Virus record (IMG/VR): IMGVR_UViG_3300027973_000078
Coordinates: 1-47,443 of that record
Direction: 5' to 3' (one strand)
Origin: a virus
DNA length: 47,443 nucleotides
Numbering within the stretch: position 1 is the first letter of the stretch; every line of letters starts with the position of its first letter. The translations under genes were made by a program, and so were the position numbers. This document shows, piece after piece, positions 3,242 through 43,868 of this stretch. The notes under the pieces were generated by a model. It was not told the origin of the DNA and did no database searches. It saw only the letters and a program-made list of their open reading frames with translations.

Positions 3242-3991
3242 TTATATGCAAACAAGTGTTCTATTTTGAAAATATTTTATTTTATCACCAGGTTTTGCAC
3301 TATTATATTCTTCAATAAATTCTTGAATTTGATTTTCATTCCATCTGATTGAAGCAGCTGCATTTCTAAATTTATTTTCAATGTTAATTCTAATCATTGA
3401 ATAATGGTACATCAACCAATTGTCACCCATAACAAAAACATGTGTTGATGTGTTTACCTTAACAGATGGATCAACAAGTACTGGATATTTTACAGATGAT
3501 GAAATGCTGGTTAATGGGTACATCTTATGTATGAATGGCATATAATATGATTCAATTGGTTCTAGAATCCAATTTTTATATTTGTAATACGTGCGCATTC
3601 TGGACACAATCAAATCAAATTCGCCTGTATTGATTATTTTTTTTCCTTCCAGGATCATTTCAGGTGAATAGAAATGATCAGCAGCAGCCATAATGAAGTG
3701 TGTTGAACCTTCTGATTTTGCATATTGAATCATTATATCGTGTTTTACGCGTTCATTTTCCTTGGTTGATAGGTTTAAATTTGGTGTAAATTCGTGAACT
3801 TCAAATTTTAATTGCTGTTTTATGTTGTGATCAATCAACCTTCCATCAATTAAATGATGATTTCCTTTATTTGATATGGTTTGAATGAAAACTGATATTT
3901 GATCAACATAATGTTTATGATGTTCAATTGAATCAAGCAACATGTCTGTATCATCACCAGTCCAGAACGTGTACAGTAAGTGTAATTTCAT
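3242..3991 (-). CDS. Putative glycosyltransferase (GT-A-like)
   Basis: A 249-residue protein resembling nucleotide-sugar glycosyltransferases of the GT-A fold. The N-terminus MKLHLLYTFWTGDD followed by helices and strands fits a Rossmann-like half. HFIMAAADHFYSPE (about 98-111) sits where the metal-binding DxD motif would be, but has D-H rather than D-D, so activity is uncertain. It is the last gene of a minus-strand sugar operon, 74 bases after the acyltransferase, and ends near a shared terminator. It may transfer a sugar to a host surface glycan or a virion protein. An alternative is a non-catalytic glycosyltransferase-like protein. Confidence 0.55.
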   Translation of the reverse strand: MKLHLLYTFWTGDDTDMLLDSIEHHKHYVDQISVFIQTISNKGNHHLIDGRLIDHNIKQQLKFEVHEFTPNLNLSTKENERVKHDIMIQYAKSEGSTHFIMAAADHFYSPEMILEGKKIINTGEFDLIVSRMRTYYKYKNWILEPIESYYMPFIHKMYPLTSISSSVKYPVLVDPSVKVNTSTHVFVMGDNWLMYHYSMIRINIENKFRNAAASIRWNENQIQEFIEEYNSAKPGDKIKYFQNRTLVCI

Positions 3992-4065: not shown

Positions 4066-4578
4066 TCAACACTTTAGCTTTGCAGGGTTTCCGTAAACAA
4101 TTTTATTTTCATCAACATTTTTGACAACAACAGATCCTAAGCCAATAAGTGAATTTTCACCAATAGAAACTCTATTTCTAACAGTAACACCCAGTTTTAT
4201 TTTGGATTTTTTGCCAATGATAGCATATCCACCAATGATTGTTCCTGTACATATCTCACAACCATCACCAATAAATACATCATGTCCAATGTGTGAATGT
4301 GCCATTATTATATTATCATTTCCAATCAATGTGATTTTGTTTTTATCAAAAGGACGTTGGATTGAAACGAATTCAGAAATCACATTATTATTTCCAATCT
4401 GAACATGGCCTTTGAAATCCTTTTGTGACACACCACGCATCTCACCATTAGATCCAATGACACAATATGCACCAATTGTATTTCCTGTTCCAAGAACAAC
4501 GTTTGGATGAATTATGGCTGTTTTATGAATATCATTTCCATCAATATTTATCCAATCATGGTTGTATAAATCGTTCAT
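4066..4578 (-). CDS. Left-handed beta-helix acyl/acetyltransferase
   Basis: A 170-residue protein made almost wholly of hexapeptide repeats ([LIV]-G-x4), for example HPNVVLGTGNTIGAYCVIG near residues 24-42 and a run of IG turns to about residue 160. This is the LpxA/sugar O- or N-acyltransferase fold, which acts as a trimer. HSHIGHDVFIGDGCEI (about 94-109) carries the conserved histidine region of LpxA-like enzymes. It lacks the C-terminal helical domain of true LpxA, so a sugar acetyl- or acyltransferase is more likely. Its start overlaps the AsnB-like stop by 4 bases, indicating translational coupling. Confidence 0.85.
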   Translation of the reverse strand: MNDLYNHDWINIDGNDIHKTAIIHPNVVLGTGNTIGAYCVIGSNGEMRGVSQKDFKGHVQIGNNNVISEFVSIQRPFDKNKITLIGNDNIIMAHSHIGHDVFIGDGCEICTGTIIGGYAIIGKKSKIKLGVTVRNRVSIGENSLIGLGSVVVKNVDENKIVYGNPAKLKC

Positions 4579-5924
4579 TTTTTAGTTATTTGATTAATTA
4601 TAAATTCAACCCACTGATCATTTGTCATATATGGATTTGAAAAACCTTTTTTGCTTCCATTGATAACTTCTGGATGTAATCCTGAAATGTCTTTCAAGAT
4701 ACGTTTATTTTTTAAATATTCATCTGGAAGTGATAATGCAAAATCAACAAGATCATTATCCAATAATGGGTATCTTGTTTCCATTGTGTGAAATCCAGCA
4801 ATTGCATCTTCAATGTTCAGAACACCATTTAAGAATTTCAAATCATAGTCAAAATGTGAAACATCATATTTTGGACCATCATTTAATGTTCTTTTGATTA
4901 CTTCATTTATTGGTTTATTAATTCTATGTGGATAACCACCAAAAAATTCATCACCACCAGCACCCGAATAAATAACAGTACAAAATTTTGAAGCAAATTC
5001 AGTCAATGCAAAATTTGTGTAACTTGATCCAACTTTTGGATCTTGAATGCATCCAATTAATTTATGTGAATATTCATTGAACATTTCCTTATTACAAATC
5101 AATGAATAATGTTTACCAGTTGAATTTAATTTGATGTTTTCAATTTCTGAATACTTTGAATCAACGTAATCCATTGAAAAACTATATTCAGGTTTCATGA
5201 ATTTTGCAATTATTCCAGAATCAATTCCACCAGACAAGAAAACACAATCATTTAATTCTGTTTTGTTCCTGGAACATGATTGAATAAATAATATTGTTAA
5301 ACGAACCTTTGCTTCATTGTAGGTAATGTTTATTTTTTCAGGAATAACAAGTGCCAATTTTCTTGTTCTGGTGATTCCTTTATAAATTGAATTTGGATTC
5401 ATTACACCAAGATCATACTTGAATTGGTCTGCTTTTATTTGATCAATTTCAATTTCAGGACATGCAGCAAGAATTGATTTTATTTCTGAAGCAATAAATA
5501 TCTTGTTTTCTTTTCTGTATTCATACAATTTTTTTATTCCAAATTTATCAGTGAATGTTGTCCATTCAAATCCATTGAAATATAATACAGCAAAAAAACC
5601 GTTCAATTCATTTAGTTTTTTTCCTTTGAATTTATCCAGGAACTTTGCCAATAGTTCTGTATCACATTTTGATTCTAATTTTATGTTGTAATGTTCAGCT
5701 AGTTCATCATAATTTGAAATGAATCCATTCATCCATACTGTATAATTATTTGAAGTGAATGGTTGCATTTTGGCTGTTGAATCAGTTATTGGAAGCCAAT
5801 TGAAATGCACAAATGAATTTGCAATTTTTGTTACACCTTGAAAAACACCACGTTTTGATGAATTATCAATCATTGATTGAATATCCTTAAGCGATCCATT
5901 AATGACTGCATTTATTCCACACAT
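4575..5924 (-). CDS. AsnB-type asparagine synthetase / amidotransferase
   Basis: A 449-residue glutamine amidotransferase of the AsnB family, shorter than the usual ~550-630. The Ntn glutaminase domain starts MCGI with the nucleophile Cys2. The synthetase PP-loop SGGIDS (231-236), SGAGGDEFFGGY and ETRYPLLD are intact. Against E. coli AsnB, the Arg49 position reads Trp43 and the NGE triad reads NGF (66-68), while the SDxE aspartate is kept (CDTE, D88). The synthetase half thus looks functional and glutamine binding altered. Related enzymes in surface-sugar loci amidate uronic acids, and the sugar-gene neighbours here suggest such a role rather than free asparagine synthesis. It overlaps the next upstream gene by 13 bases. 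Confidence 0.88.
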   Translation of the reverse strand: MCGINAVINGSLKDIQSMIDNSSKRGVFQGVTKIANSFVHFNWLPITDSTAKMQPFTSNNYTVWMNGFISNYDELAEHYNIKLESKCDTELLAKFLDKFKGKKLNELNGFFAVLYFNGFEWTTFTDKFGIKKLYEYRKENKIFIASEIKSILAACPEIEIDQIKADQFKYDLGVMNPNSIYKGITRTRKLALVIPEKINITYNEAKVRLTILFIQSCSRNKTELNDCVFLSGGIDSGIIAKFMKPEYSFSMDYVDSKYSEIENIKLNSTGKHYSLICNKEMFNEYSHKLIGCIQDPKVGSSYTNFALTEFASKFCTVIYSGAGGDEFFGGYPHRINKPINEVIKRTLNDGPKYDVSHFDYDLKFLNGVLNIEDAIAGFHTMETRYPLLDNDLVDFALSLPDEYLKNKRILKDISGLHPEVINGSKKGFSNPYMTNDQWVEFIINQITKK

Positions 5925-6841
5925 GTAATTTGTTTTAGGGTTTTTTCAGCGTTGGAATCTTTGATATATGATGTATTTTCCCACAATGCAAACGGTGTCA
6001 TGTTTGTGTTTGATTTAATGTCAAATGCATACAGGTTAAATTGCTTTAATGAAAAAATAAATGATGTATGTGGCGTTGTTCTCAACTTATCCTGCATTGA
6101 ATTATCAAGAATCTTTGAATGTTTTATTTGCCACGGTTGCCACTTCCATTCATTCATTAATCTTGCAGAAATTAACCTACCAGCACCACATGTGTGTCCA
6201 ATTCTTCGTGAATCAGTATAACCGCCCCAATATGACATTTTCTTTGATATGGTATCATAAAAATACCAATCCAAAACAGCAACATAATCAACTTGTAGGT
6301 TTATTTGCTTGGTATAAACACAAAGAAGTTCATTTGTTATAAGATCATCAGAACCAACACAAAGAACATAATCACATGATAGTTGATTTGCAACAATTGT
6401 TGTGGCGTTCATTTTTGTTGCAAGTGGATCATTGTCAATTTCAATATAAATGAATCCATGTTTTTCAACCATCTGTTTTGATTTCGTGCCTTCAGAACCT
6501 GAAACAATCACAATTATTTCCAAATCAGGATGCTTCAATTTCTTGGTTGCAATAGCAAACATTTCAAAAATTTCAGGACGTTTCCAACATGCGGTGACAA
6601 TTGCCAATCTTTTTTTCCATTTTGGAAGATTATTTAAAGATGAATTATTTATTACAATGGTTTGTTCTATTTCATCTTCAATGATTAATTCTACTGAATC
6701 TGATTCAGCAATAAATCCATTTAGAATTAAAGATGGAATGTTTGCACGTAGAAAAAATGTTTCTGGATATATTTCACCACGCTTCAAGATTTTACCACCT
6801 CTTGAACTAACTGTTTCGTGTTTTATGATGTATGATTTCAT
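5912..6841 (-). CDS. Glycosyltransferase (GT2-like) with a capsid-neighbour N-terminal domain
   Basis: A 309-residue protein of two parts. Residues about 78-300 resemble a family 2 glycosyltransferase: LAIVTACWKRPE opens the Rossmann half and VLCVGSDDLIT (159-169) holds the SDD metal motif. Residues 1-50 are a separate small domain with GGKILKRGEIYPETFF and NIPSLILNGFI. It matches the N-terminus of the head protein at 28355-28696 (GKKIFNAGDIVTEENF and NIPGLISSGFL) with the same spacing. A linker (50-77) joins the parts. It lies in the middle of the minus-strand sugar operon and overlaps both neighbours (ATGA upstream, 13 bases downstream). The extra domain may tether the enzyme to the virion. 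Confidence 0.85.
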   Translation of the reverse strand: MKSYIIKHETVSSRGGKILKRGEIYPETFFLRANIPSLILNGFIAESDSVELIIEDEIEQTIVINNSSLNNLPKWKKRLAIVTACWKRPEIFEMFAIATKKLKHPDLEIIVIVSGSEGTKSKQMVEKHGFIYIEIDNDPLATKMNATTIVANQLSCDYVLCVGSDDLITNELLCVYTKQINLQVDYVAVLDWYFYDTISKKMSYWGGYTDSRRIGHTCGAGRLISARLMNEWKWQPWQIKHSKILDNSMQDKLRTTPHTSFIFSLKQFNLYAFDIKSNTNMTPFALWENTSYIKDSNAEKTLKQITCVE

Positions 6842-7476
6842 TTTAAAACGGTTGTATAAAAATTAAATGATTCTTGGTCCATGTGTTTTTTTAGAAATAA
6901 CAATTCAGAATCATCATTCACATATCTATGAAGGTAATCAATGTGATTTCGTCCACCACACAATCCAACACCGTGTTTGATTCCAATTGAAATTATTTCT
7001 TCAGGTTTAAAAAGTATTCCTTTTAAAGTTTTCCATAAATGTAAATCTGTATATGGTTCATGATCCACGCACCATGTAAAATCTAAATCAGCTTTTAGAA
7101 GTGTATTCATTGCTGATGCACGTCTTGAATGATTCATCATCAGGTGTGCATTTATTCCAATATGATAATAAATTGTGTAATTGGTCCCCAATATATCAGG
7201 TTTACCAGATTCAATCCATTTATTCACCATTATTTCAATGTAGGTTGGTGAATAGTAATCATCATTTTCAATTAATAGAATACAATCAAAATTTTTGTTT
7301 CTGAAAAATTCATATCCTATTCTGTAACGTTGTGTAATATCCACATTATGATTCAATGGTTCGTAACCCACAACATGAATGACTGCCTTCATTGTTTGGT
7401 TTTCCATCATTCTTTTACAGTTGTTCAAGAATTTTGGGCGGTCATTTCTATCTGGTATTAAAATTCCTATTTTCAT
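6838..7476 (-). CDS. Glycosyltransferase family 2-like protein
   Basis: A 212-residue compact glycosyltransferase of the GT-A fold. MKIGILIPDRNDRPKFL opens the nucleotide-binding half, and CILLIENDDYYSPTYIE (65-81) carries the ENDD (DxD-type) metal-binding motif followed by the expected helix. DFTWCVDHEPYTDLHLW may form the acceptor side. It is the first gene of the five-gene minus-strand sugar operon and overlaps the next gene by an ATGA junction. A -7 box (7482-7489) ends only 5 bases before its ATG, so its message may be nearly leaderless. Substrate unknown. Confidence 0.85.
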   Translation of the reverse strand: MKIGILIPDRNDRPKFLNNCKRMMENQTMKAVIHVVGYEPLNHNVDITQRYRIGYEFFRNKNFDCILLIENDDYYSPTYIEIMVNKWIESGKPDILGTNYTIYYHIGINAHLMMNHSRRASAMNTLLKADLDFTWCVDHEPYTDLHLWKTLKGILFKPEEIISIGIKHGVGLCGGRNHIDYLHRYVNDDSELLFLKKHMDQESFNFYTTVLK

Positions 7477-12182: not shown

Positions 12183-12712
12183 TGGATTTATTAGTAATTG
12201 AAACAGGAAATGGCGGTGATATTGTTCTAAATGGAAATGATTTGGTGACAATAAATGGTTTTGAAAATATGCCATATATTGGAATGTTTGGTGGTAACGT
12301 TGAACAATCCACAACCCAGAACCAAACTATCATTGCAGGCGAACAACAGTTTGATTGGTGGGGCAATTCGTTGTTGATGTTTAATAATCCAATCATTCAA
12401 TATAATTCAACACTTGAAAGAATTTTAAAAACTATTTCAATCACATCATCAGCACGTGAAACAATAAAGCGTGCTGTCATGGAAGATTTAAGATTTTTTC
12501 AATCAATTGGAAGATTAACTGTTGATGTTTCAATAACTGGAATTGATAGAATACATATTTTAATCCGTATTCAACAACCAAATAATGTGACATTAAATGA
12601 ATTTTTATATATTTGGAATTCAACAAACGAAGAATTATCAATGCCTGAAATTCAAGGAATTGAAAACGGAAATGGTGTTGCATTAAATGACATTATAAAT
12701 TTTGAACTATAA
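12182..12712 (+). CDS. Baseplate wedge protein (Mu gp46 / gp25-like)
   Basis: A 176-residue protein. The N-terminal GDIVLNGNDLVTINGFENMPYIGMFGG and FDWWGNSLLMF (about 58-68) follow the Mu gp46 layout, where a D-x2-x GDL strand and a WWG motif lie on the wedge. The later part SSARETIKRAVMEDLRFFQSIGR is the helical core of gp25/gpW wedge proteins. It overlaps the tape measure stop by one base and the next gene start by one base. It is separated from the J- and I-like wedge genes by the inserted fibre genes. Confidence 0.75.
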   Translation: MDLLVIETGNGGDIVLNGNDLVTINGFENMPYIGMFGGNVEQSTTQNQTIIAGEQQFDWWGNSLLMFNNPIIQYNSTLERILKTISITSSARETIKRAVMEDLRFFQSIGRLTVDVSITGIDRIHILIRIQQPNNVTLNEFLYIWNSTNEELSMPEIQGIENGNGVALNDIINFEL

Positions 12713-12777
12713 TGGCTAGAGTAACATTTGAAGATAAAGAATCAACTAGATCATCTAGTTTGCCAGCAAAGAATCAA
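12712..12777 (+). repeat. 66-bp direct repeat, copy 1 (fibre N-terminus)
   Basis: 63 of 66 bases equal those at 14885-14950; both begin at the fibre ATG. Such DNA-level identity permits recombination that would swap or delete fibre cargo. Confidence 0.9.
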
Positions 12778-14112
12778 ATCAATGCTGTTGATATAAATGA
12801 AATCAAAACATCTATCAATACATTATATGATGATGTTGATGGACTTAATACTGATGTTGATGCAATTCTTGGTTACGCAATGTCTGTTCAAGCTGAATTG
12901 GATAATAAGGTAAATAAAAATGCAACAATAACACCAGGAACAAAAACAAAATTCGTTTATGATTCAAAAGGTTTAATTCTTGCTGGATATGATGCAACGC
13001 TTGCTGATTTTAATGGTGATTCAACACACAGGGTTGTAACAGATGCGCAAATTTCAGCATGGAATGCATTAGTTGGTGGATCTGTTTTTCAAACAGTATG
13101 GAATGCAAACACCAATATACCTACATTATCAAGTAGTGTTGGAACAAAAGGATTTTATTATATTATTGATACTATTGGATCAACAAATTTAAATGGAATT
13201 ACTGATTGGAAAATTGGTGATTGGGCTATATTTGACGGCACTGTTTGGCGTAAAGTTGACAATACAGATGCAGTTTCTTCAGTTAATGGATTGTCTGGTG
13301 CTGTTAATTTAGACACGTCCAATGTTCCAGATACGTTAAACAAAAGATATGTTTCAGATGCTGATGTTATTGTTCTAGGAAATACAAGTGGAACAAATAG
13401 TGGTGATAATGCAACAAATACACAATACAGTGGACTTGCAGCAAGCAAAGAAAACACATCAAATAAATCAACATCAACTAGTGATTTTGCAAGTAATACA
13501 AAATTTCCAGTTTGGAATGCAATTGTTTCATATTTTTCAGATGTTCAGATAAGATCAATTCTTGGAATTAGCACATTGTCTGGATTAAACACTGGTGATG
13601 AAACAGCAGCTTCAATTGGTGTTATTGTTAATGGATCAAGTGCTGCAACACCAAATAATTCAGATTTAGTTGCAACAGTTGAAAGTTCTGTTGTAAAGAA
13701 AATCACATGGACAAATGTTAAAGCGTTTTTAAAAACATATTTTGATACTTTATATCAAACAATCATGGTTTCAGGTGTTGATATTAAAACGCTTGATGGT
13801 GTTTCATTATTGGGCGCTGGAAACATTAGTACAGGAACTTTAATTTCAGGACAAACAACAATCACTTTTGGTACAATAAACACTGTTGCAGTTGGTACAA
13901 TAGCAAGTTTATTAATAACAAATTCAAATATTAAATCAATTTCTTTCATACCTTTTGAGACAGCAGAAACAAGTCTGGATGATTTTATTCTGAATGATAT
14001 TTCAATTAATTTGCAAAATATCATTGATAATGTTAGTTTTGATATTCAATTAAAGACACCAACTGATGCTGTTGGTAATTATACAGTAAATTATTATATT
14101 CAAATTTTATAA
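12712..14112 (+). CDS. Tail fibre / receptor-binding protein 1
   Basis: A 466-residue tail fibre candidate. Its first 22 residues, and partly the next 25, equal those of the protein encoded at 14885 (MARVTFEDKESTRSSSLPAK). The shared part probably anchors both fibres to the baseplate. IGDWAIFDGTVWRKVDNTD (about 167-185) is a motif often seen in phage fibres and carbohydrate-binding modules. Repeated Thr/Ser/Asn/Gly stretches (GTNSGDNATNTQYSGLAASK) suggest a beta-helical shaft, and the C-terminal 100 residues look like a globular beta tip. It belongs to a fibre block inserted among the wedge genes. Confidence 0.8.
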   Translation: MARVTFEDKESTRSSSLPAKNQINAVDINEIKTSINTLYDDVDGLNTDVDAILGYAMSVQAELDNKVNKNATITPGTKTKFVYDSKGLILAGYDATLADFNGDSTHRVVTDAQISAWNALVGGSVFQTVWNANTNIPTLSSSVGTKGFYYIIDTIGSTNLNGITDWKIGDWAIFDGTVWRKVDNTDAVSSVNGLSGAVNLDTSNVPDTLNKRYVSDADVIVLGNTSGTNSGDNATNTQYSGLAASKENTSNKSTSTSDFASNTKFPVWNAIVSYFSDVQIRSILGISTLSGLNTGDETAASIGVIVNGSSAATPNNSDLVATVESSVVKKITWTNVKAFLKTYFDTLYQTIMVSGVDIKTLDGVSLLGAGNISTGTLISGQTTITFGTINTVAVGTIASLLITNSNIKSISFIPFETAETSLDDFILNDISINLQNIIDNVSFDIQLKTPTDAVGNYTVNYYIQIL

Positions 14113-14114
14113 AT

Positions 14115-14885
14115 ATGTCAACACAGATCAAGGATGCACAAGGTAATATTATTGACACCTTAAATAAAATAGGCGGTGAAACAATAACTGATGCGAGAGC
14201 AAACACAGTTGTTTTGGGTGCTTTAAATGCTGAAACAACAATTGATCTTGATGGGCAAACAATGGCTAATTTTGATGTTCGTGGAACGTTGTCATTGACA
14301 TTAACACCGTCATATTCAGTTGATGGATCAAATTATATTGATTTACCTGTTTTTAATAGAGCAATAGAAGCATTCGCATTGAATGTTACAGTAATTGGAA
14401 CATATCAATTTGAAATTCCTATTGGAGCAAAGAAAATCAGAATTAGATGTACAGCATATACATCAGGAAGTGCAACGGTTGCTTTAACTGCAAATATGGG
14501 CGCACAGTTGGTTTATACAAAAGATATTCCATTGACATCACATGTTACTGCAACAGGTGTTTCAGGTGCAGCGGTCACATTAACTTTGCCATCTGTAACA
14601 GGGTTAAGACACTACATAAGAAATATAAAAATCGAAAAATTTGCAGTTGCATTATTGGTGGCTGGTGCTACTCCTGTTATTGGGACAACAACAAATCTTG
14701 CTGGTTCTCGTGCTTATTCTTTTGATGCATCAGCACAATTAGCTGGTGTTATAATAAAAGAACGCGAAACATTTGATGGTTCACCATTAATGTCAGTAGC
14801 CGTTACAACTGCAACAACAATTGTTCTTCCAGCAACAACAAATGTTATCTGGAGGGTTTCATGTGATTATTATCTTGGATTATAA
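14115..14885 (+). CDS. Tail/baseplate structural protein, beta-rich
   Basis: A 256-residue protein lying between two fibre genes that share their N-termini. Residues about 1-130 read as a beta-sandwich (TTIDLDGQTMANFDVRGTLSLTLTPSYSVDG; FEIPIGAKKIRIRCTAY), as in phage receptor-binding or upper-baseplate proteins. Residues 130-256 form a second beta domain ending in RVSCDYYLGL. I cannot name a precise family. The gene lies 2 bases after fibre 1 and overlaps the start of fibre 2 by one base. It is likely a fibre-associated adhesin or a spacer protein. Confidence 0.6.
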   Translation: MSTQIKDAQGNIIDTLNKIGGETITDARANTVVLGALNAETTIDLDGQTMANFDVRGTLSLTLTPSYSVDGSNYIDLPVFNRAIEAFALNVTVIGTYQFEIPIGAKKIRIRCTAYTSGSATVALTANMGAQLVYTKDIPLTSHVTATGVSGAAVTLTLPSVTGLRHYIRNIKIEKFAVALLVAGATPVIGTTTNLAGSRAYSFDASAQLAGVIIKERETFDGSPLMSVAVTTATTIVLPATTNVIWRVSCDYYLGL

Positions 14886-14950
14886 TGGCTAGAGTAACAT
14901 TTGAAAATAAAGAATCAACTAGATCATCTAGTTTGCCAGCTAAAAATCAA
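14885..14950 (+). repeat. 66-bp direct repeat, copy 2 (fibre N-terminus)
   Basis: Second copy of the repeat described at 12712-12777, with three differences. It starts at the ATG of fibre 2. Confidence 0.9.
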
Positions 14951-16429
14951 GTTAAAGATGCTGATTTAAATGAAATGAAAGCATCCATCAATGCATTGTA
15001 TGATGAAATTGAACAGGATGACATTGACATTACTGGAAAAGAAGATAAGATAAACAAGGATGCAACAGGGGGTTATGTTGGTTTAACGCTGTTTAAAATA
15101 AATTTCAAGAACGCATTAAATACCATTACAAGTTTTTTTACTAACTCCAACACAGTTGCAAGGACGTACACTTTTCAAGATAGAAATGGAACAATTGCTG
15201 ATGATACTGATTTGGCAGCAAAAGAAAATTCTTTACCAACTATGGCTGGTCAATCTTTAAAAGTTCTTCGAGTAAATGCATTAGAAACAGCTAAGGAATG
15301 GCACACAATTGAAAGTGGCTTAACAATAGGCACAACTCCAATAACTTCAGGTACAACAAAGCGTGTATTATTTCAAGATGGCTCTGTTGTTTCTCAAAGT
15401 GCTAATTTCGTATTTGATGCTTCTAATCAGTTAGTAATCGGAGGGCATACGGGAGGTTCTAGAATTGACGTAAAAGCAGGAGGAGCTTTGAGTACTGATT
15501 TAGGCTTTAGAGTTAGGAATAGTGCTGATACCGCTAATATATTAATGGTAAATGGAGTCGGTCAAGTTTGGTCGAATGGTAAAGGGGCACAAACACAAAA
15601 TACGGGTTTCGGGCAATTATCTTTGAACAGTTGTACTACGGGAAACAATAACACTGCATACGGTTACAATGCACTTGCAACGGTCACAACTGGCACAGCA
15701 AATACAGCGATAGGATGTGCAGCATTACAACTTACAACGGGAGCAGAAAATACAGCTGTGGGATTTGCAGCTGGTCAACTAAATGCTGGAGGCTATTATA
15801 ATACTTACTTGGGCGTTTCGGCTGGGCAATATGGAAGTACTGCTAGTGGTTGTACTTTTATAGGTTATGCAGCTGGTCAAAGTTCAAATGCCCAATACGG
15901 TGTATTTATAGGTTATACAGCAAGTATAACTGGTGGAAACGGAACGGTAGCAATAGGATATCTTGCAGGAGCAGGAACGGGGGCTCATAATCTTTCATTA
16001 GGGCAACAGTCAGGTTCAGGAATGACAACTGGTAGTTTTAACACGCATTTAGGATATAGAAGTGTAGCTAGTGGTATTACTACGGGCAATTATAATAATT
16101 TATTAGGCTCTGACATAGTTGTTGGTGCTGTTTCTAATACGGCAGTACTTGCCGATAATCAGGGCAATATTGCAATACGAAAAGATGCTAATCACTTTGT
16201 CGGAGTAGGTTACTCAGGAACTGCAACATTAGGAGCAAAACTAGACGTGAAAGCACAAGGTGCATTAGTTACTAATTTAGCTCTAAGAGTTAGAAACTCG
16301 GCAGATACGGATAATCTATTTGTAGTAAAAGGTAACGGAGTATTAAATGCTGCAAATCTACCGACGTCCGCAACGGGACTTGTAACGGGAGATATATGGA
16401 ATAATTTAGGAATTTTAACAATAGTATAA
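14885..16429 (+). CDS. Tail fibre / receptor-binding protein 2 with NTAxG repeats
   Basis: A 514-residue fibre. Residues 1-45 match fibre 1. Residues about 238-410 are an imperfect repeat array around 'G..NTA.G..A' (NNNTAYGYNA, ANTAIGCAA, ENTAVGFAAGQ, CTFIGYAAGQ, GTVAIGYLAG), like the trimeric beta-solenoid heads of YadA-type adhesins. A module, DVKAGGALSTDLGFRVRNSA (about 195-214), recurs near 457-476, bracketing the array. From about base 15300 the codon choice changes (more agt/tct, gga, acg, cgg and fewer tca/aca), and this persists into the next gene, so the distal fibre looks recently imported. Likely host-range determinant. Confidence 0.82.
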   Translation: MARVTFENKESTRSSSLPAKNQVKDADLNEMKASINALYDEIEQDDIDITGKEDKINKDATGGYVGLTLFKINFKNALNTITSFFTNSNTVARTYTFQDRNGTIADDTDLAAKENSLPTMAGQSLKVLRVNALETAKEWHTIESGLTIGTTPITSGTTKRVLFQDGSVVSQSANFVFDASNQLVIGGHTGGSRIDVKAGGALSTDLGFRVRNSADTANILMVNGVGQVWSNGKGAQTQNTGFGQLSLNSCTTGNNNTAYGYNALATVTTGTANTAIGCAALQLTTGAENTAVGFAAGQLNAGGYYNTYLGVSAGQYGSTASGCTFIGYAAGQSSNAQYGVFIGYTASITGGNGTVAIGYLAGAGTGAHNLSLGQQSGSGMTTGSFNTHLGYRSVASGITTGNYNNLLGSDIVVGAVSNTAVLADNQGNIAIRKDANHFVGVGYSGTATLGAKLDVKAQGALVTNLALRVRNSADTDNLFVVKGNGVLNAANLPTSATGLVTGDIWNNLGILTIV

Positions 16430-25554: not shown

Positions 25555-25562
25555 TAATTTTG
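25555..25562 (+). promoter_or_regulatory. Late head operon promoter candidate
   Basis: TAATTTTG followed by CTTCA, sharing TTTGCTTCA with the tail operon promoter. It ends 6 bases before ATG 25569, so a near-leaderless message is predicted. Confidence 0.55.
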
Positions 25563-25568
25563 CTTCAT

Positions 25569-26573
25569 ATGAAAGAAATTTTATTATACGGTCCAATCTG
25601 GTCTGAATCATCATCAATCTTCATTAACGCTGTTAATGAATTAGAAGGTGATAATTTAACTGTTCGTATAAATAGCGGTGGCGGTGAACCAACTTATGGA
25701 TGGGGAATGGTTGCTAAATTTGCTGAATTTTCAGGAACAAAAAAAGTAAAAGTTGATGGTTCTGCATATTCAATGGCAGCGTTTTTCTGTTGTTATGCTG
25801 AAGATATTGAATGTTTAGATGTATCACAATTCTTGATTCACCGTGCTGCAATGTCGCAATGGTATGAACAAGAATACATGAGTGATTCAGAGCGTGACAA
25901 TTTAATAAACATTAATGTATCACTTGAAAAGGCATTCAGAAGCAAAATTGATGTTGCTAAATTTGAGCAAATAAAAGGTGTGAAAGTTAAAGACATTTTT
26001 TCTATGGAAAATAGAATTGATGTGTTTTTAACTGCAAGTGAAGCAAAGCAAATTGGATTAATTTCTAAAATCACAACAATCACACCAAAGAAAAAAACTG
26101 AAATAAATGCATCAATGAATCTTATTGCTGCATCTTATGGTTTTGACATCATGTCAATGAATAAACCAGCAATTGATTCTGCTGAAGAAAAAAAGGAATC
26201 CATAAAAAGCAATTCTAAAACCCAAATAAAAATGACAATTGAACAATTAAAAGCTGATCATCCTGAACTTTTTGTTCAAGTCACTGCATCAGCAATTAAA
26301 GAAGAAAAGGACCGTGTTGGTGCTTGGATGAAATTCATTGGTGCTGATGCTGATGCTGTTGTAAAAGGTATTGAATCAGGTGAAAACCTTGGACAAACTG
26401 CAATGGCTGATTTTACAGTTAAGATGATCACTAATGCTGGAACGGTTGAAAAAATCGGTGCTGAAGGTGCAGCAGTAGTAATTGAAACAAAAAAACCAGA
26501 AGGTGTTGAAAAAACGGCTGCTGAATTGTTTCAAGACAAAGTAAATGCTAGTTTAAACCCTGAAATTAAATAA
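25569..26573 (+). CDS. Prohead protease (ClpP/S49-like) with scaffold tail
   Basis: A 334-residue protein counted from ATG 25569; the frame opens with TTG 25560, but that lies inside the promoter box. Residues 1-160 form a ClpP-fold protease: INSGGGEPTYGWGM, the nucleophile Ser68 in GSAYSMAAF, His91 in FLIHRAAM, and a closing 'DVFLTASEAKQIGLI'. Residues about 165-334 are charged and probably helical, like a scaffold. An in-frame ATG at 26232 (TIEQLKADHPEL) after an A-rich stretch could produce the scaffold alone, as lambda C/Nu3 does. The decoration protein gene follows by 2 bases. Confidence 0.88.
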   Translation: MKEILLYGPIWSESSSIFINAVNELEGDNLTVRINSGGGEPTYGWGMVAKFAEFSGTKKVKVDGSAYSMAAFFCCYAEDIECLDVSQFLIHRAAMSQWYEQEYMSDSERDNLININVSLEKAFRSKIDVAKFEQIKGVKVKDIFSMENRIDVFLTASEAKQIGLISKITTITPKKKTEINASMNLIAASYGFDIMSMNKPAIDSAEEKKESIKSNSKTQIKMTIEQLKADHPELFVQVTASAIKEEKDRVGAWMKFIGADADAVVKGIESGENLGQTAMADFTVKMITNAGTVEKIGAEGAAVVIETKKPEGVEKTAAELFQDKVNASLNPEIK

Positions 26574-26575
26574 TT

Positions 26576-27010
26576 ATGTCAACAGGAACGAATGTTTTAG
26601 CGACTGCAAATCAGTCAATAACAAATTATGATTCATCAAAAATTTTCCTTTGGGAAAATGAATTTATCAATGCTACTGTTGAAGCTGGTCAATATGATGA
26701 TATATTACCAGGAACTTTAATGGGACGTGTTGCTGCAACAGGTATTGTTGTTCCTTTAGAATCAAATGCATCAGATGGTAGTCAATTTCCTTTAGGTATC
26801 TTGAATGGAACTGTTGTTGCAGGTGATTCAAAGATTGCTTCAATTTGTGTTTGTGGTGATGTTGATGAAGCATCAGTATTGTTCACAAAAGTTGGTGACA
26901 CATTGAATACAATTGTTTCTTCAAGAATTTTGCGTGATAGAATCCTTGGTGATACAAAAGGAATCAATTTGATTGCTGCTGTTCAATTGTCAAAATTGGA
27001 TAACCAATAA
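26576..27010 (+). CDS. Capsid decoration protein (lambda gpD-like)
   Basis: A 144-residue protein between protease/scaffold and major capsid genes, as lambda D lies between Nu3 and E. The sequence EAGQYDDILPGTLMGRVAATGIVVPLESNASDGSQFPLGILNGTVVAGD has the gpD plan of an 'aG..l..G.vla......y......dG...a.Gil' strand set. CGDVDEASVLF matches 'G.v....l'. It would trim threefold sites of the expanded capsid. Confidence 0.87.
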   Translation: MSTGTNVLATANQSITNYDSSKIFLWENEFINATVEAGQYDDILPGTLMGRVAATGIVVPLESNASDGSQFPLGILNGTVVAGDSKIASICVCGDVDEASVLFTKVGDTLNTIVSSRILRDRILGDTKGINLIAAVQLSKLDNQ

Positions 27011-27049
27011 TTAAATATTAATCAAAACAAAAATTTAAAAATTTAAAAG

Positions 27050-28237
27050 ATGAAAAGTATTTTCACAATTTTAATGACATTCATTGCATCCTTGGTAATT
27101 TCAAGCGCATTGTTTGCAGGTCAAAATTTAGGCCTTACATTCGCTGGAATGGTTGGTGTTTCAGTTTTAGCACCACAAAGCATGACAGGATTTGCATTTG
27201 AAACAATTTCACCGCTTCAAGCACGTGGAATCTATACAGATACAATGATTGCAATTTTCCGTGAAAGAATTCCAGTAATGAGTTTTTTACGTTCGTTCTT
27301 CCCTGCAAGAACAACAATGACTAAATATGTTAGTATTGAAGTTCAACGTGGAACAGAACGTGTTGCTGTTGATGTTATGCGTGGAACAAATGGTAATAGA
27401 AACAAAAGTACATTGTCAACAATGAAAACGTTTTTACCTCCATATTTCAACGAATTCTTTTTAGCTAATGAACTTGATGTTTATGACCGTGCAATTGGTT
27501 CAACAGATCCACAAGCAATGGTTGATTTTTCACGTGAATCAGCACAAGAATTGGCAAAACTTAGAGATAAGATTGATAGAGCAGTTGAATTGATGTGTGC
27601 GCAAATCTTTGAATTTGGAATCATTACACTTGTGAATGGTGATAATGTTGATTTCAAAAGAAAAGCGGCTTCATTAGTTGCAAACGTTGCTGGAAATACT
27701 TGGGCAACTGGTACTGTTTCACCTTATGACACATTAAAAGCTGGTGCAAAGTTCTTGCGTGAAACTGGGAAAGTAATGGGTGCAAACTTCAATGTGATTT
27801 TGGGTGCAACAGCACTTGACAATTTCTTAAGCAACGCAATTGTTCTTGGAAGAAATGACATTAAGAACTTGACATTGGATCAGATTTCATCACCTGTTAA
27901 AAATGCAGTTGGTGCATCATATCACGGACGTGTAACTGCTGGTGCATACACATTTGATTTGTGGACATATCCTGAAGTATATGAAGATGTAAATGGTGCT
28001 GTTCAACCATATGTTAATCCAAAAAAAGTTGTAATTCTTCCAGAAACAACAAACTTTGAATTGGCTTATGGATTGATTCCACAATTAATGAATGGTGGTG
28101 CGCCTCAAACAGGACAATTCTTGATTAAAGATTTTGTTGATGAACGTGCAATGGCACATGAAGTTCATATCATGTCAGCACCAATTCCAATTCCAGTTGC
28201 AATTGATCAGATGTACACTGTTCAAGTGGTTGCATAA
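27050..28237 (+). CDS. Major capsid protein (lambda gpE family)
   Basis: A 395-residue capsid protein. After residue 50 it follows the gpE family: FLRSFFPARTTMTKYVSIEVQRGTERVAVDVMRGTNGN, then LPPYFNEFFLANELDVYDRAIG, and the E-type helix FSRESAQELAKLRDKIDRAVELMCAQIFEFGIITL. FNVILGATALDNFLSN and GAYTFDLWTYPEVYED follow in order. Odd point: residues 1-24 (MKSIFTILMTFIASLVISSA and on) look like a signal peptide. That segment would normally not be on a capsid protein; the prohead protease may remove it, or the start may be later (ATG at residue 34). Confidence 0.9.
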   Translation: MKSIFTILMTFIASLVISSALFAGQNLGLTFAGMVGVSVLAPQSMTGFAFETISPLQARGIYTDTMIAIFRERIPVMSFLRSFFPARTTMTKYVSIEVQRGTERVAVDVMRGTNGNRNKSTLSTMKTFLPPYFNEFFLANELDVYDRAIGSTDPQAMVDFSRESAQELAKLRDKIDRAVELMCAQIFEFGIITLVNGDNVDFKRKAASLVANVAGNTWATGTVSPYDTLKAGAKFLRETGKVMGANFNVILGATALDNFLSNAIVLGRNDIKNLTLDQISSPVKNAVGASYHGRVTAGAYTFDLWTYPEVYEDVNGAVQPYVNPKKVVILPETTNFELAYGLIPQLMNGGAPQTGQFLIKDFVDERAMAHEVHIMSAPIPIPVAIDQMYTVQVVA

Positions 28238-28262
28238 TCTGAATTGAAATAATTAAATATTG

Positions 28263-28295
28263 AAAACCACCATTTTAAAATGGTGGTTTTTTTTT
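28263..28295 (+). terminator. Intrinsic terminator after the capsid gene
   Basis: AAAACCACCATTTT and its exact complement AAAATGGTGGTTTT form a 14-bp perfect palindrome (28263-28290), followed by five more Ts. It separates the abundant capsid message from the next genes. Confidence 0.85.
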
Positions 28296-28313
28296 ATTGT
28301 ATTCAAAAATCAT

Positions 28314-28321
28314 TATATTTG
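28314..28321 (+). promoter_or_regulatory. Promoter candidate for connector genes
   Basis: TATATTTG, a good -7 box, 33 bases before ATG 28355 and just after the capsid terminator. TTG at 28297-28299 is nearer than the usual -33 spacing. Confidence 0.5.
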
Positions 28322-28354
28322 AGTTCAAAATATTATTAATTAATAAATCAAGTT

Positions 28355-28696
28355 ATGAAATACACCGTTATTGCATTGTCAGTTCAAGGAAAAGGAAAAA
28401 AGATTTTCAACGCTGGTGACATTGTTACAGAAGAAAATTTTCCAGAAGGAAATATTCCTGGTTTAATTTCTAGTGGATTCTTGTCTGAAGGTTTTTTAGA
28501 TGAATCTGAAGAATTGGAATCTGAAGAATTGGAATCCGAAGAATTGGAAGATGCAGTAATTCTAAAAACGGATGTGTTAAATAAAAAACAAATCATTGCC
28601 AAATTAAAAGAATTGAGATCAGAAGATGATTCAGTTGTTTTTGATGCAAATGATGATAAACAAACGTTGCTTGACTATTTAAACACATTAGTTTAA
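28355..28696 (+). CDS. Head protein with GT-shared N-terminal domain and HeH end
   Basis: A 113-residue protein directly after the major capsid gene. Residues 1-46 form a small domain (GKKIFNAGDIVTEENF...NIPGLISSGFLSEG) also present at the start of the glycosyltransferase at 5912-6841. Residues 50-65 are a repeat of SEELE (three 15-bp units). Residues about 75-112 (LNKKQIIAKLKEL...FDANDDKQTLLDYL) fit an HeH/LEM-like helix-extended-helix motif, common in phage head-completion proteins. It probably joins head and tail or decorates the capsid. The stop overlaps the next gene's ATG by one base. Confidence 0.72.
   Translation: MKYTVIALSVQGKGKKIFNAGDIVTEENFPEGNIPGLISSGFLSEGFLDESEELESEELESEELEDAVILKTDVLNKKQIIAKLKELRSEDDSVVFDANDDKQTLLDYLNTLV
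28502..28546 (+). repeat. Three tandem 15-bp repeats in a head protein
   Basis: The unit GAATCTGAAGAATTG occurs twice exactly and a third time with one change (T to C). It encodes ESEEL each time. Being in-frame, copy number can change by slippage and only alters an acidic linker. Confidence 0.9.
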
Positions 28697-29055
28697 TGAA
28701 TCTAGTTGATAGAGCAAAACAGGACATTCAAACAATCACATCAAATTCTTCGGAATTTGGTGTGCCTGTTGTGTTTTTAGCACCTACAAGTGAAACGGTG
28801 ACAATCAACTGTCTTGAATCAACACACCACACTTCATTTGATTCTACTGGTGAAAAAATAAACTCAAAGCAAGCGCAAATTGCTGTTTCTGAATTATTGC
28901 TGATTTCATCAAATTATCCATATATTGATTCAAATGATGAAGTTTCATTCAAAGATCATTTATTAACCTTTGGAGGTAAAACAATGATTGTCAATCAATG
29001 GTTTCCTGATAGAACTGCATCGTTAATTGTTTTAATACTTGGTGAATATGAGTAA
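28696..29055 (+). CDS. Head-tail connector protein, candidate
   Basis: A 119-residue protein located between the HeH head protein and the tail terminator candidate. It has a beta-rich centre (VPVVFLAPTSETVTINCLES; SELLLISSNYPYIDSNDEVSFKDHLLTFGGKTMIVNQWFPD), which fits the small beta-barrel of gpFII-like head-tail stoppers. FKDHLLTFGGKTMIV resembles 'v....y.v..v..d' strands of that family. Its stop overlaps the next start by 8 bases. Function inferred from size, order and fold type. Confidence 0.65.
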   Translation: MNLVDRAKQDIQTITSNSSEFGVPVVFLAPTSETVTINCLESTHHTSFDSTGEKINSKQAQIAVSELLLISSNYPYIDSNDEVSFKDHLLTFGGKTMIVNQWFPDRTASLIVLILGEYE

Positions 29056-29653
29056 AATTAACGCCATAATTCCACAATTTAATTTTGATTTAATTGCTGA
29101 TAGGCTTGCAAGTATTATTGCTATTGAATTGAATTATCAAGTTGCTGTTGATTATGATGATAAAATTGATGCAAAGGTATTCATTGAACGTTCAATTCCA
29201 ATTGATGCTTCAGAACTTCCAATGGTGAATGTTGCCTTTGCTGGTGCTGATTATGACAATAAAAAGCAAACATCAAAGGATGGTTCATACACGTTTGAAA
29301 TTGATGCTTACACAAAATCAAAAACTGATGCTTCTGAAATGTCAGATAAAAAAGCCACAAAAACACTTCAAAGAATTCTTGGAATAATAAATTATGTGCT
29401 TGAACATCCAGCATATAAAACGCTTGATTTTGCACCAGGCTTTATTGCAACAACACTTGTTCAATCAATAAAGATTCAAGATCCAAAAGGTGCAAAAGAT
29501 GTTGATTCTGTAAAAATGGGACGAATTTCTTTTGCTGTTCGTGTTTGGGAATCAACAACAGATGAACCAGTTACAAATGTTTTACAATATAATACACAAG
29601 TTCAAATTGAAGAATCTGAACAAGGATATTACTATCAGGTGTTAAATACTTGA
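29048..29653 (+). CDS. Tail terminator / completion protein, candidate
   Basis: A 201-residue protein from ATG 29048, which overlaps the previous stop (ATGAGTAA); a TTG frame start at 29039 is less likely. ADRLASIIAIELNYQ is an initial helix. 'LPMVNVAFAGADYDNKKQTSKDGSYTFEIDAYTKSKTD' (about 54-92) is a beta hairpin of the kind seen in gpU-like tail terminators, and DKKATKTLQRILGIINYVLEHP a following helix. This is the last head/tail gene of the late block. It would close the tube end and bind the head connector. Confidence 0.62.
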   Translation: MSKINAIIPQFNFDLIADRLASIIAIELNYQVAVDYDDKIDAKVFIERSIPIDASELPMVNVAFAGADYDNKKQTSKDGSYTFEIDAYTKSKTDASEMSDKKATKTLQRILGIINYVLEHPAYKTLDFAPGFIATTLVQSIKIQDPKGAKDVDSVKMGRISFAVRVWESTTDEPVTNVLQYNTQVQIEESEQGYYYQVLNT

Positions 29654-42965: not shown

Positions 42966-43868
42966 ATGACTGATTTTAAAAATACACCTGAACTTTCAGA
43001 AAACACCGAAACCGCTATTTCTTATAGCACGTGTTATGCCTCGTTTTTATACGTTGTTTTGTTTTCTGGGGGTCGTACTTCCGCATTTTTAGCAAAGTAT
43101 ATGAAAGAACACCCACATTATAAAAACTGCATTTTTGTTTTTATGAATACTGGAAAAGAACGTGAAGAAACTTTGCAATTTGCTGATAAATGCGATAAAG
43201 AATTTGGATTGAATTTAGTTTATTTAGAGGCATTAGTAAATAATGAAAAAGGGAAAGGAACAACTTATACAATAGTTGACTTTGAAACTGCATCAAGAAA
43301 TGGAGAACCATTTGAATCTATGTTAAAAAAATATCCTTTACCTAATAATATGGCTTCTAATTGCACAAGAGAATTGAAACAAAGACCTATTGATGCTTAT
43401 TTGCGTGATAATTACAAAGATTTTGATATTATTAAAGTAGTAGGAATTAGAGCAGATGAAGCACATCGAAAAAGCGTAAATGCTGAAATTGAAAAAGTGA
43501 TTTATCCTTTATGTGATGAAGTGAAAATTGATAGTCGATTTATTTGTAATTGGTGGGAAAAGCAAAGTTTTGATTTAGGATTAAAAGACTATCAAGGTAA
43601 TTGTGATTTATGCTTTAAAAAGTCATTAAAAAAAAGATTGACAATTATAAAAGAAAATCCTGAAAGTGCTAAATGGTGGCTTGAAATGGAACAAAAATAT
43701 AGTTCCGAAGAAATACCAAGATTTGATTTAAGAACGAATAAAAGCATTGAAGAATTAGTAGAAATGGCACAAAGACCATTTACTAAAGCACAAGATTTAC
43801 ACGAACTTTCACAACAACAATGTGATTTATTTGAATTTGAAACGGATTGTTTCTGCAAGGCTTCTTAA
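42966..43868 (+). CDS. PAPS-reductase-like PP-loop protein, probably imported
   Basis: A 300-residue protein of the phosphoadenosine phosphosulfate reductase family. The PP-loop SGGRTSAFLAKYM starts at about residue 34, with VFMNTGKEREETLQFADKC after it and 'DFDIIKVVGIRADEAHRKS' and CDLCFKKSLKKR in the late part. The latter Cys pair and the C-terminal CDLFEFETDCFC may bind metal. The first 25 residues do not belong to the family. An inverted repeat, GTTATGCCTC/GAGGCATAAC, brackets the family part (43033-43042, 43872-43881), and codon choice differs from neighbours. I infer an inserted cassette. Phage relatives may modify nucleotides or thiolate RNA, but the function is not known. Confidence 0.75.
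   Translation: MTDFKNTPELSENTETAISYSTCYASFLYVVLFSGGRTSAFLAKYMKEHPHYKNCIFVFMNTGKEREETLQFADKCDKEFGLNLVYLEALVNNEKGKGTTYTIVDFETASRNGEPFESMLKKYPLPNNMASNCTRELKQRPIDAYLRDNYKDFDIIKVVGIRADEAHRKSVNAEIEKVIYPLCDEVKIDSRFICNWWEKQSFDLGLKDYQGNCDLCFKKSLKKRLTIIKENPESAKWWLEMEQKYSSEEIPRFDLRTNKSIEELVEMAQRPFTKAQDLHELSQQQCDLFEFETDCFCKAS
43033..43042 (+). repeat. 10-bp inverted repeat, left arm
   Basis: GTTATGCCTC, the reverse complement of 43872-43881. It lies in codons about 23-26 of the PAPS-reductase-like gene, just before the family domain. Confidence 0.6.

Follow-up and report, generated by a model that had tools for sequence, protein, structure and literature searches.

Virion glycosylation involving phage glycosyltransferases has been reported for the mycobacteriophages Che8 and Rita (Freeman 2023, cited in PMC11256854), and, as far as that citing account goes, the phage analysed here resembles them in encoding such enzymes; capsid sugar is reported for Che8 and Rita (cited in PMC11256854). 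Within the literature searched, where the Che8 and Rita work is represented by that citation, we found no mention of a head-type domain on their enzymes. The head side of the comparison is provided by gpFI (PF14000), the DNA-packaging chaperone of phage lambda. Attachment to the gpE lattice and assistance to terminase in meeting the prohead have been described for it (PMC4856287; PMC7889075), and non-specific DNA binding has been put forward as its mode of action (PMC4856287). The protein in the corresponding position of our phage shares with gpFI both the slot between E and FII and a two-part build with a linker, but the helical part lies at the C terminus in alignments of our protein and its relatives and at the N terminus, as a SAP/helical part, in lambda FI. 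On the enzyme side, the GT2-like glycosyltransferases 6p61, TarP and WrtF have the GT-A fold and an acidic DD motif in common with the glycosyltransferase (GT) examined here, which differs from them by an additional N-terminal phage domain.

The window, that is, the whole stretch of DNA analysed, is a 47,443-base IMG/VR record of a contractile-tailed phage with recognised genes for terminase, sheath, tube, tape measure, baseplate, portal, protease, a D-like decoration protein and an E-type capsid protein (Table 1). Its head genes follow the lambda order C-D-E-FI-FII-Z-U, as do those of its relatives, which were collected by scanning viral contigs with the GT alignment, the capsid and the domain; in every relative examined, the head-region protein lies between capsid and Hc1, the FI slot of lambda. 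The GT occupies second place in a cassette of five genes (GT212, GT, amidotransferase, acyltransferase, GT249) encoded on the strand opposite to the structural genes, with a terminator-like site at its end. The cassette showed no excess of promoter-like sites over shuffled sequences. Separately, a PAPS-reductase-like gene (42966-43868, plus strand) lies downstream of the replication genes.

Table 1 Features of the window and of related contigs (positions refer to the window unless a contig is named)
Feature	Position	Strand	Basis or remark
GT249, cassette gene without Pfam match	3242..3991	-	kept in relatives' cassettes
Hexapeptide acyltransferase, NeuD-like	4066..4578	-	PF00132; TIGR03570 3e-28, below its cut-off
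Asparagine-synthase-like amidotransferase	4575..5924	-	PF00733 7.6e-26, PF13537 3.2e-18
GT carrying the shared domain, 309 aa	5912-6841	-	
GT, GT-A fold, putative catalytic core, residues 73-309	5912..6625	-	Foldseek; motifs
GT, flexible linker, residues 48-72	6626..6700	-	residues 51-64 pLDDT below 50
GT, shared domain, residues 1-47	6701..6841	-	alignment, profiles, model
GT212, putative GT	6838..7476	-	weak PF00535 (0.022, below cut-off)
Head gene block: protease, D-like, E-type capsid, FI-slot protein, Hc1, U-like	25560..29653	+	gene order
Head-region (post-capsid, FI-slot) protein, 113 aa	28355-28696	+	
FI-slot protein, shared domain, residues 1-46	28355..28492	+	alignment, profiles, model
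FI-slot protein, acidic linker, ESEEL repeats	28493..28579	+	residues 51-68 pLDDT below 50
FI-slot protein, helix-extension-helix-like C-terminal domain	28580..28696	+	helices 77-90, 102-112; relatives' alignment
Domain + protein X, after GT212, beside portal gene	L101:772-1647	-	
Domain + protein X, after GT212, beside portal gene	L121:3001-3864	+	
Domain-less GT + amidotransferase + acyltransferase	L127:5947-8617		Candidatus Peregrinibacteria MAG contig

A preliminary description of this DNA had proposed that the GT begins with the same domain as the protein that follows the capsid gene, and the comparison bears this out. An ungapped alignment pairs GT residues 4-46 with head-region protein residues 3-45 at a local score of 85, a value reached by 0 of 5,000 shuffles (mean 23.6, s.d. 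4.5, maximum 50). The two proteins are each other's best match among the open reading frames of the window (next best 41-42), and a tblastn search of the whole record with the GT returned only the GT itself and the head-region protein. A head-only profile built from eight head-region proteins recovered the GT N termini of relatives (E = 2e-13, 5e-13, 1e-9 and 7e-7) and, weakly (0.01), that of the window GT, which ranks among the more diverged copies; conversely, a GT-only profile recovered head proteins (best E = 4e-14), and hhalign of the head profile against the GT profile gave a probability of 98.9% over 50 columns (E = 1.2e-17). On this sequence evidence, homology of the N-terminal ~46 residues is beyond doubt. 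As had also been claimed, the two proteins are otherwise unrelated, a GT-A enzyme core following the domain in one and an acidic linker with a helix-extension-helix-like end in the other. All contigs in which we saw the domain were phage contigs, which speaks against a general motif of non-phage proteins. Neither Pfam nor NCBIfam has a model that names the domain, and the annotated phage records searched held no meaningful relatives of the GT, the head protein or the L027 GT. PHROG 6286, a family without assigned function, matches the head protein (7.3e-5) and, in all, 9 of 19 head and GT-domain proteins (best 1.4e-11); the window GT gave no match to it.

AlphaFold predicts four strands (residues 3-6, 10-12, 18-20 and 24-26), a helix (32-40) and a closing strand (44-47) for the GT domain, with pLDDT of about 90, and strands 2-5, 9-11, 17-19 and 23-25 with a helix at 34-39 for the head protein domain. 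The models show the same beta4-alpha-beta fold, with a disordered linker after it in each protein. As short GT fragments were part of the alignment behind the head model, full independence of the two predictions is not claimed. The GT linker is 38% identical between the window and L004. The acidic linker ends the head-region proteins of relatives, many of which add the helix-extension-helix-like domain; the number of ESEEL pentapeptide repeats in it differs between the window and L007, being larger in L007.

Beyond the linker, the GT core matches 6p61, TarP and WrtF at a Foldseek probability of 1.0 and retains the GSDD, GAGR and DIKS motifs; its match to PF00535 (19.4 bits) falls below the gathering score of 23.3. 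We read it as a putative GT2-like glycosyltransferase of GT-A fold. In most relatives, the amidotransferase and acyltransferase come after the GT, and natural fusions join GT212 to a domain-less GT core (L011:9359-10726 and L012:9359-10726) and a GT core to the acyltransferase (L024:3290-4492), which supports a common pathway for the cassette members. All cassette members are predicted to be soluble, and we saw no gene for sugar transfer at the membrane among them. In the group of phages with E-type capsids, the cassette is located within the virion gene block.

Two further features of the virion genes are recorded here in their own right. The major capsid open reading frame (27050-28237, plus strand) opens with a hydrophobic, signal-peptide-like stretch of ~28 residues, its Pfam domain beginning at residue 65; L045, L047, L049 and L052 share this start from residue 1 onwards, and more distant relatives lack it, their match beginning at residue 53 or 57. 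Two tail proteins (12712-14112 and 14885-16429, both plus strand) have near-identical N-terminal ~45 residues (MARVTFE.KESTRSSSLPAKNQ) and different bodies, and constitute a second shared N-terminal module in the window genome.

The ~46-residue domain, which folds independently, forms the N-terminal half of the FI-slot protein and the tethered start of cassette proteins. Our leading reading, which we hold tentatively, is that it is a docking module bringing cassette enzymes to the assembling head. The FI-slot copy would attach to the head under construction, probably to its capsid lattice; the tethered copy of the GT would carry the catalytic core to that same assembly, so that the cassette would glycosylate virion proteins while they are being built, with the amidotransferase and acyltransferase tailoring the sugar. 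The homology, the same predicted fold and the disordered linker in both proteins support such docking, as does, by analogy, the constant position of the head protein in the slot of a lambda protein described as lattice-bound. A more specific form, in which the capsid-docking half of a packaging-chaperone-slot protein serves as an exchangeable address label and the enzymes glycosylate the head on the procapsid, appears to us unlikely.

Searches by sequence, HMM and hhalign found no homology to lambda FI or PF14000, and 2lsm, the PDB entry for the lambda FI C-terminal domain, was absent from the 50 fold matches listed, of 53, for the head model. A profile of the helix-extension-helix-like domain ranked FI first among lambda open reading frames, with an E value of only 0.027; as the match consisted of two fragments of about 10 residues, we did not accept the head protein as an FI homologue. 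Because FI remained unmatched, we use 'FI slot' as a statement of position, from which the function of the head-region protein is inferred. The preliminary description had spoken of a virion module fused to a sugar enzyme: a shared domain is indeed present on a head-region protein and a cassette enzyme, recurrently and in conserved form, but the FI slot is the position of an assembly chaperone in lambda, and the head-region protein may therefore not remain in the particle.

The alignment scan yielded 41 viral GT loci; in 14 of them the domain precedes the GT, most others beginning at the catalytic core, and whole-record searches added further examples (G020, G038/G039 and G036). In two phages of the E-capsid group (G028 and G046), the gene after GT212 instead encodes the domain ahead of a different protein of ~240 residues, protein X. 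Searches of Pfam, PHROG, NCBIfam and the PDB gave no match for protein X. We considered it as a diverged GT core and rejected this on an hhalign probability of 0.2%, a test of little power with two protein X sequences only; its place in the cassette suggests an enzyme. Among records with both the head protein and the cassette, seven of eight (the window, G001, G020, G039, G036, G028 and G046; the exception being G018, with L034) have the domain on a protein of the cassette as well. This presence on two unrelated cassette proteins supports docking on the head.

The same survey also feeds the explanation that follows close behind, for which we see appreciable though lesser probability: that the domain is a generic adaptor, a common small interaction fold of phages, whose cassette copy binds something unrelated to the head, for instance another cassette enzyme, an acceptor or a regulator, the likeness to the head protein reflecting common descent only. 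A fold search indeed matched the domain to many small phage proteins. In phages lacking a head copy, the domain occurs only on the GT, where it is diverged (G002, G003, G006, G011, G012 and G016); several of these six or more records are fragments, but some exceed 40 kb. Together with the lack of FI homology and a weak association of GT domain and head protein (Fisher P = 0.06-0.09, uncorrected for relatedness), such GT-only records count against docking. On the other side, the domain is most frequent where a head copy exists, and its presence does not track that of a neighbouring GT212: domain-bearing GTs lack an adjoining GT212 at seven loci (L072, L008, L009, L016, L026, L027 and L032), and GT212 lies beside domain-less GTs at L014, L024 and L034, so we rejected GT212 as the docking partner. 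The domain is too short for a tree with firm splits, and we put no figure on how often fusion occurred.

Residue patterns favour the adaptor. The positions common to head and cassette copies are mainly core hydrophobics and glycines, whereas residues typical of the head copies are mostly lost on the enzymes: in the E-capsid group, 16 of 17 head copies but 3 of 9 cassette copies have Leu at position 8, and Pro 30, present in 14 of 17 head copies, is not among the commonest residues on cassette proteins. Enzyme and head domains from the same genome are no closer than those from different phages (P = 0.47, six genomes), and we rejected co-evolution of the two within a genome. Common ancestry is therefore firm; a simple common partner, such as the capsid partner suggested in the preliminary description for both proteins, is disfavoured by these patterns and by the phages with GT-only domains.

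Substitution patterns indicate that the domain is maintained. Omega values for three pairs (0.11, 0.02 and 0.14; 0.11 for the window and L004) point to purifying selection on the domain, which, with the predicted solubility of the cassette and its lack of a membrane sugar-transfer gene, supports docking on the head. Synonymous divergence is higher in the domain than in the core for the window and L004 (dS 1.70 vs 0.55) and for L008 and L040 (1.36 vs 0.13 in the adjoining core), figures that come from short stretches and are rough where dS nears saturation. In these two pairs, DNA identity drops across the domain and linker, the immediate flanks being about 80-98% identical; in the third pair, L071 and L109, the dip lies in the core and not in the domain. 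The simplest reading suggested by these data is that the domain segment has been exchanged as a unit by recombination with its function kept, the alternative being locally fast silent change.

The remaining explanations fare less well. The cassette might alter a sugar of the host surface, for example excluding other phages, with the domain merely stabilising or regulating the enzyme. Its opposite strand and terminator-like end recall morons, and relatives of the acyltransferase work in polysaccharide synthesis, but no membrane or polymerase/flippase-type gene was seen in the cassette and a head-protein domain would be an odd choice for such a role; we consider this improbable. Far less credible still is a DNA-binding domain on a GT that sugar-modifies phage DNA: the non-specific DNA binding proposed for lambda FI (PMC4856287) would fit, but FI homology was not found, and the base-hydroxymethylating partner of phage DNA glucosyltransferases, or anything similar, has no counterpart among the annotated genes of the window. 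Equally slight is the chance that illegitimate recombination placed the start of a head gene before the GT gene without any role: the GT core is complete without the domain in most relatives (the single GT relative in bacterial genomes, at 48% identity, also lacks it) and phage genomes recombine freely, but purifying selection in all three pairs, an intact predicted fold and recurrence in 14 of 41 loci and in a second protein family stand against neutral accretion.

The sharing of the domain between head-region and cassette proteins is real and recurrent and, as far as the literature and annotated phage records searched show, undescribed, in keeping with the preliminary description, whose author knew of no such phage system. 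A small, transferable domain common to a head-assembly slot and two families of cassette proteins would be a targeting signal open to direct testing, and bears on how sugar enzymes of phages select the proteins they modify. The domain also offers a way into the unnamed FI-slot proteins of these phages, and it can serve to recognise further enzymes with a possible action on virions.
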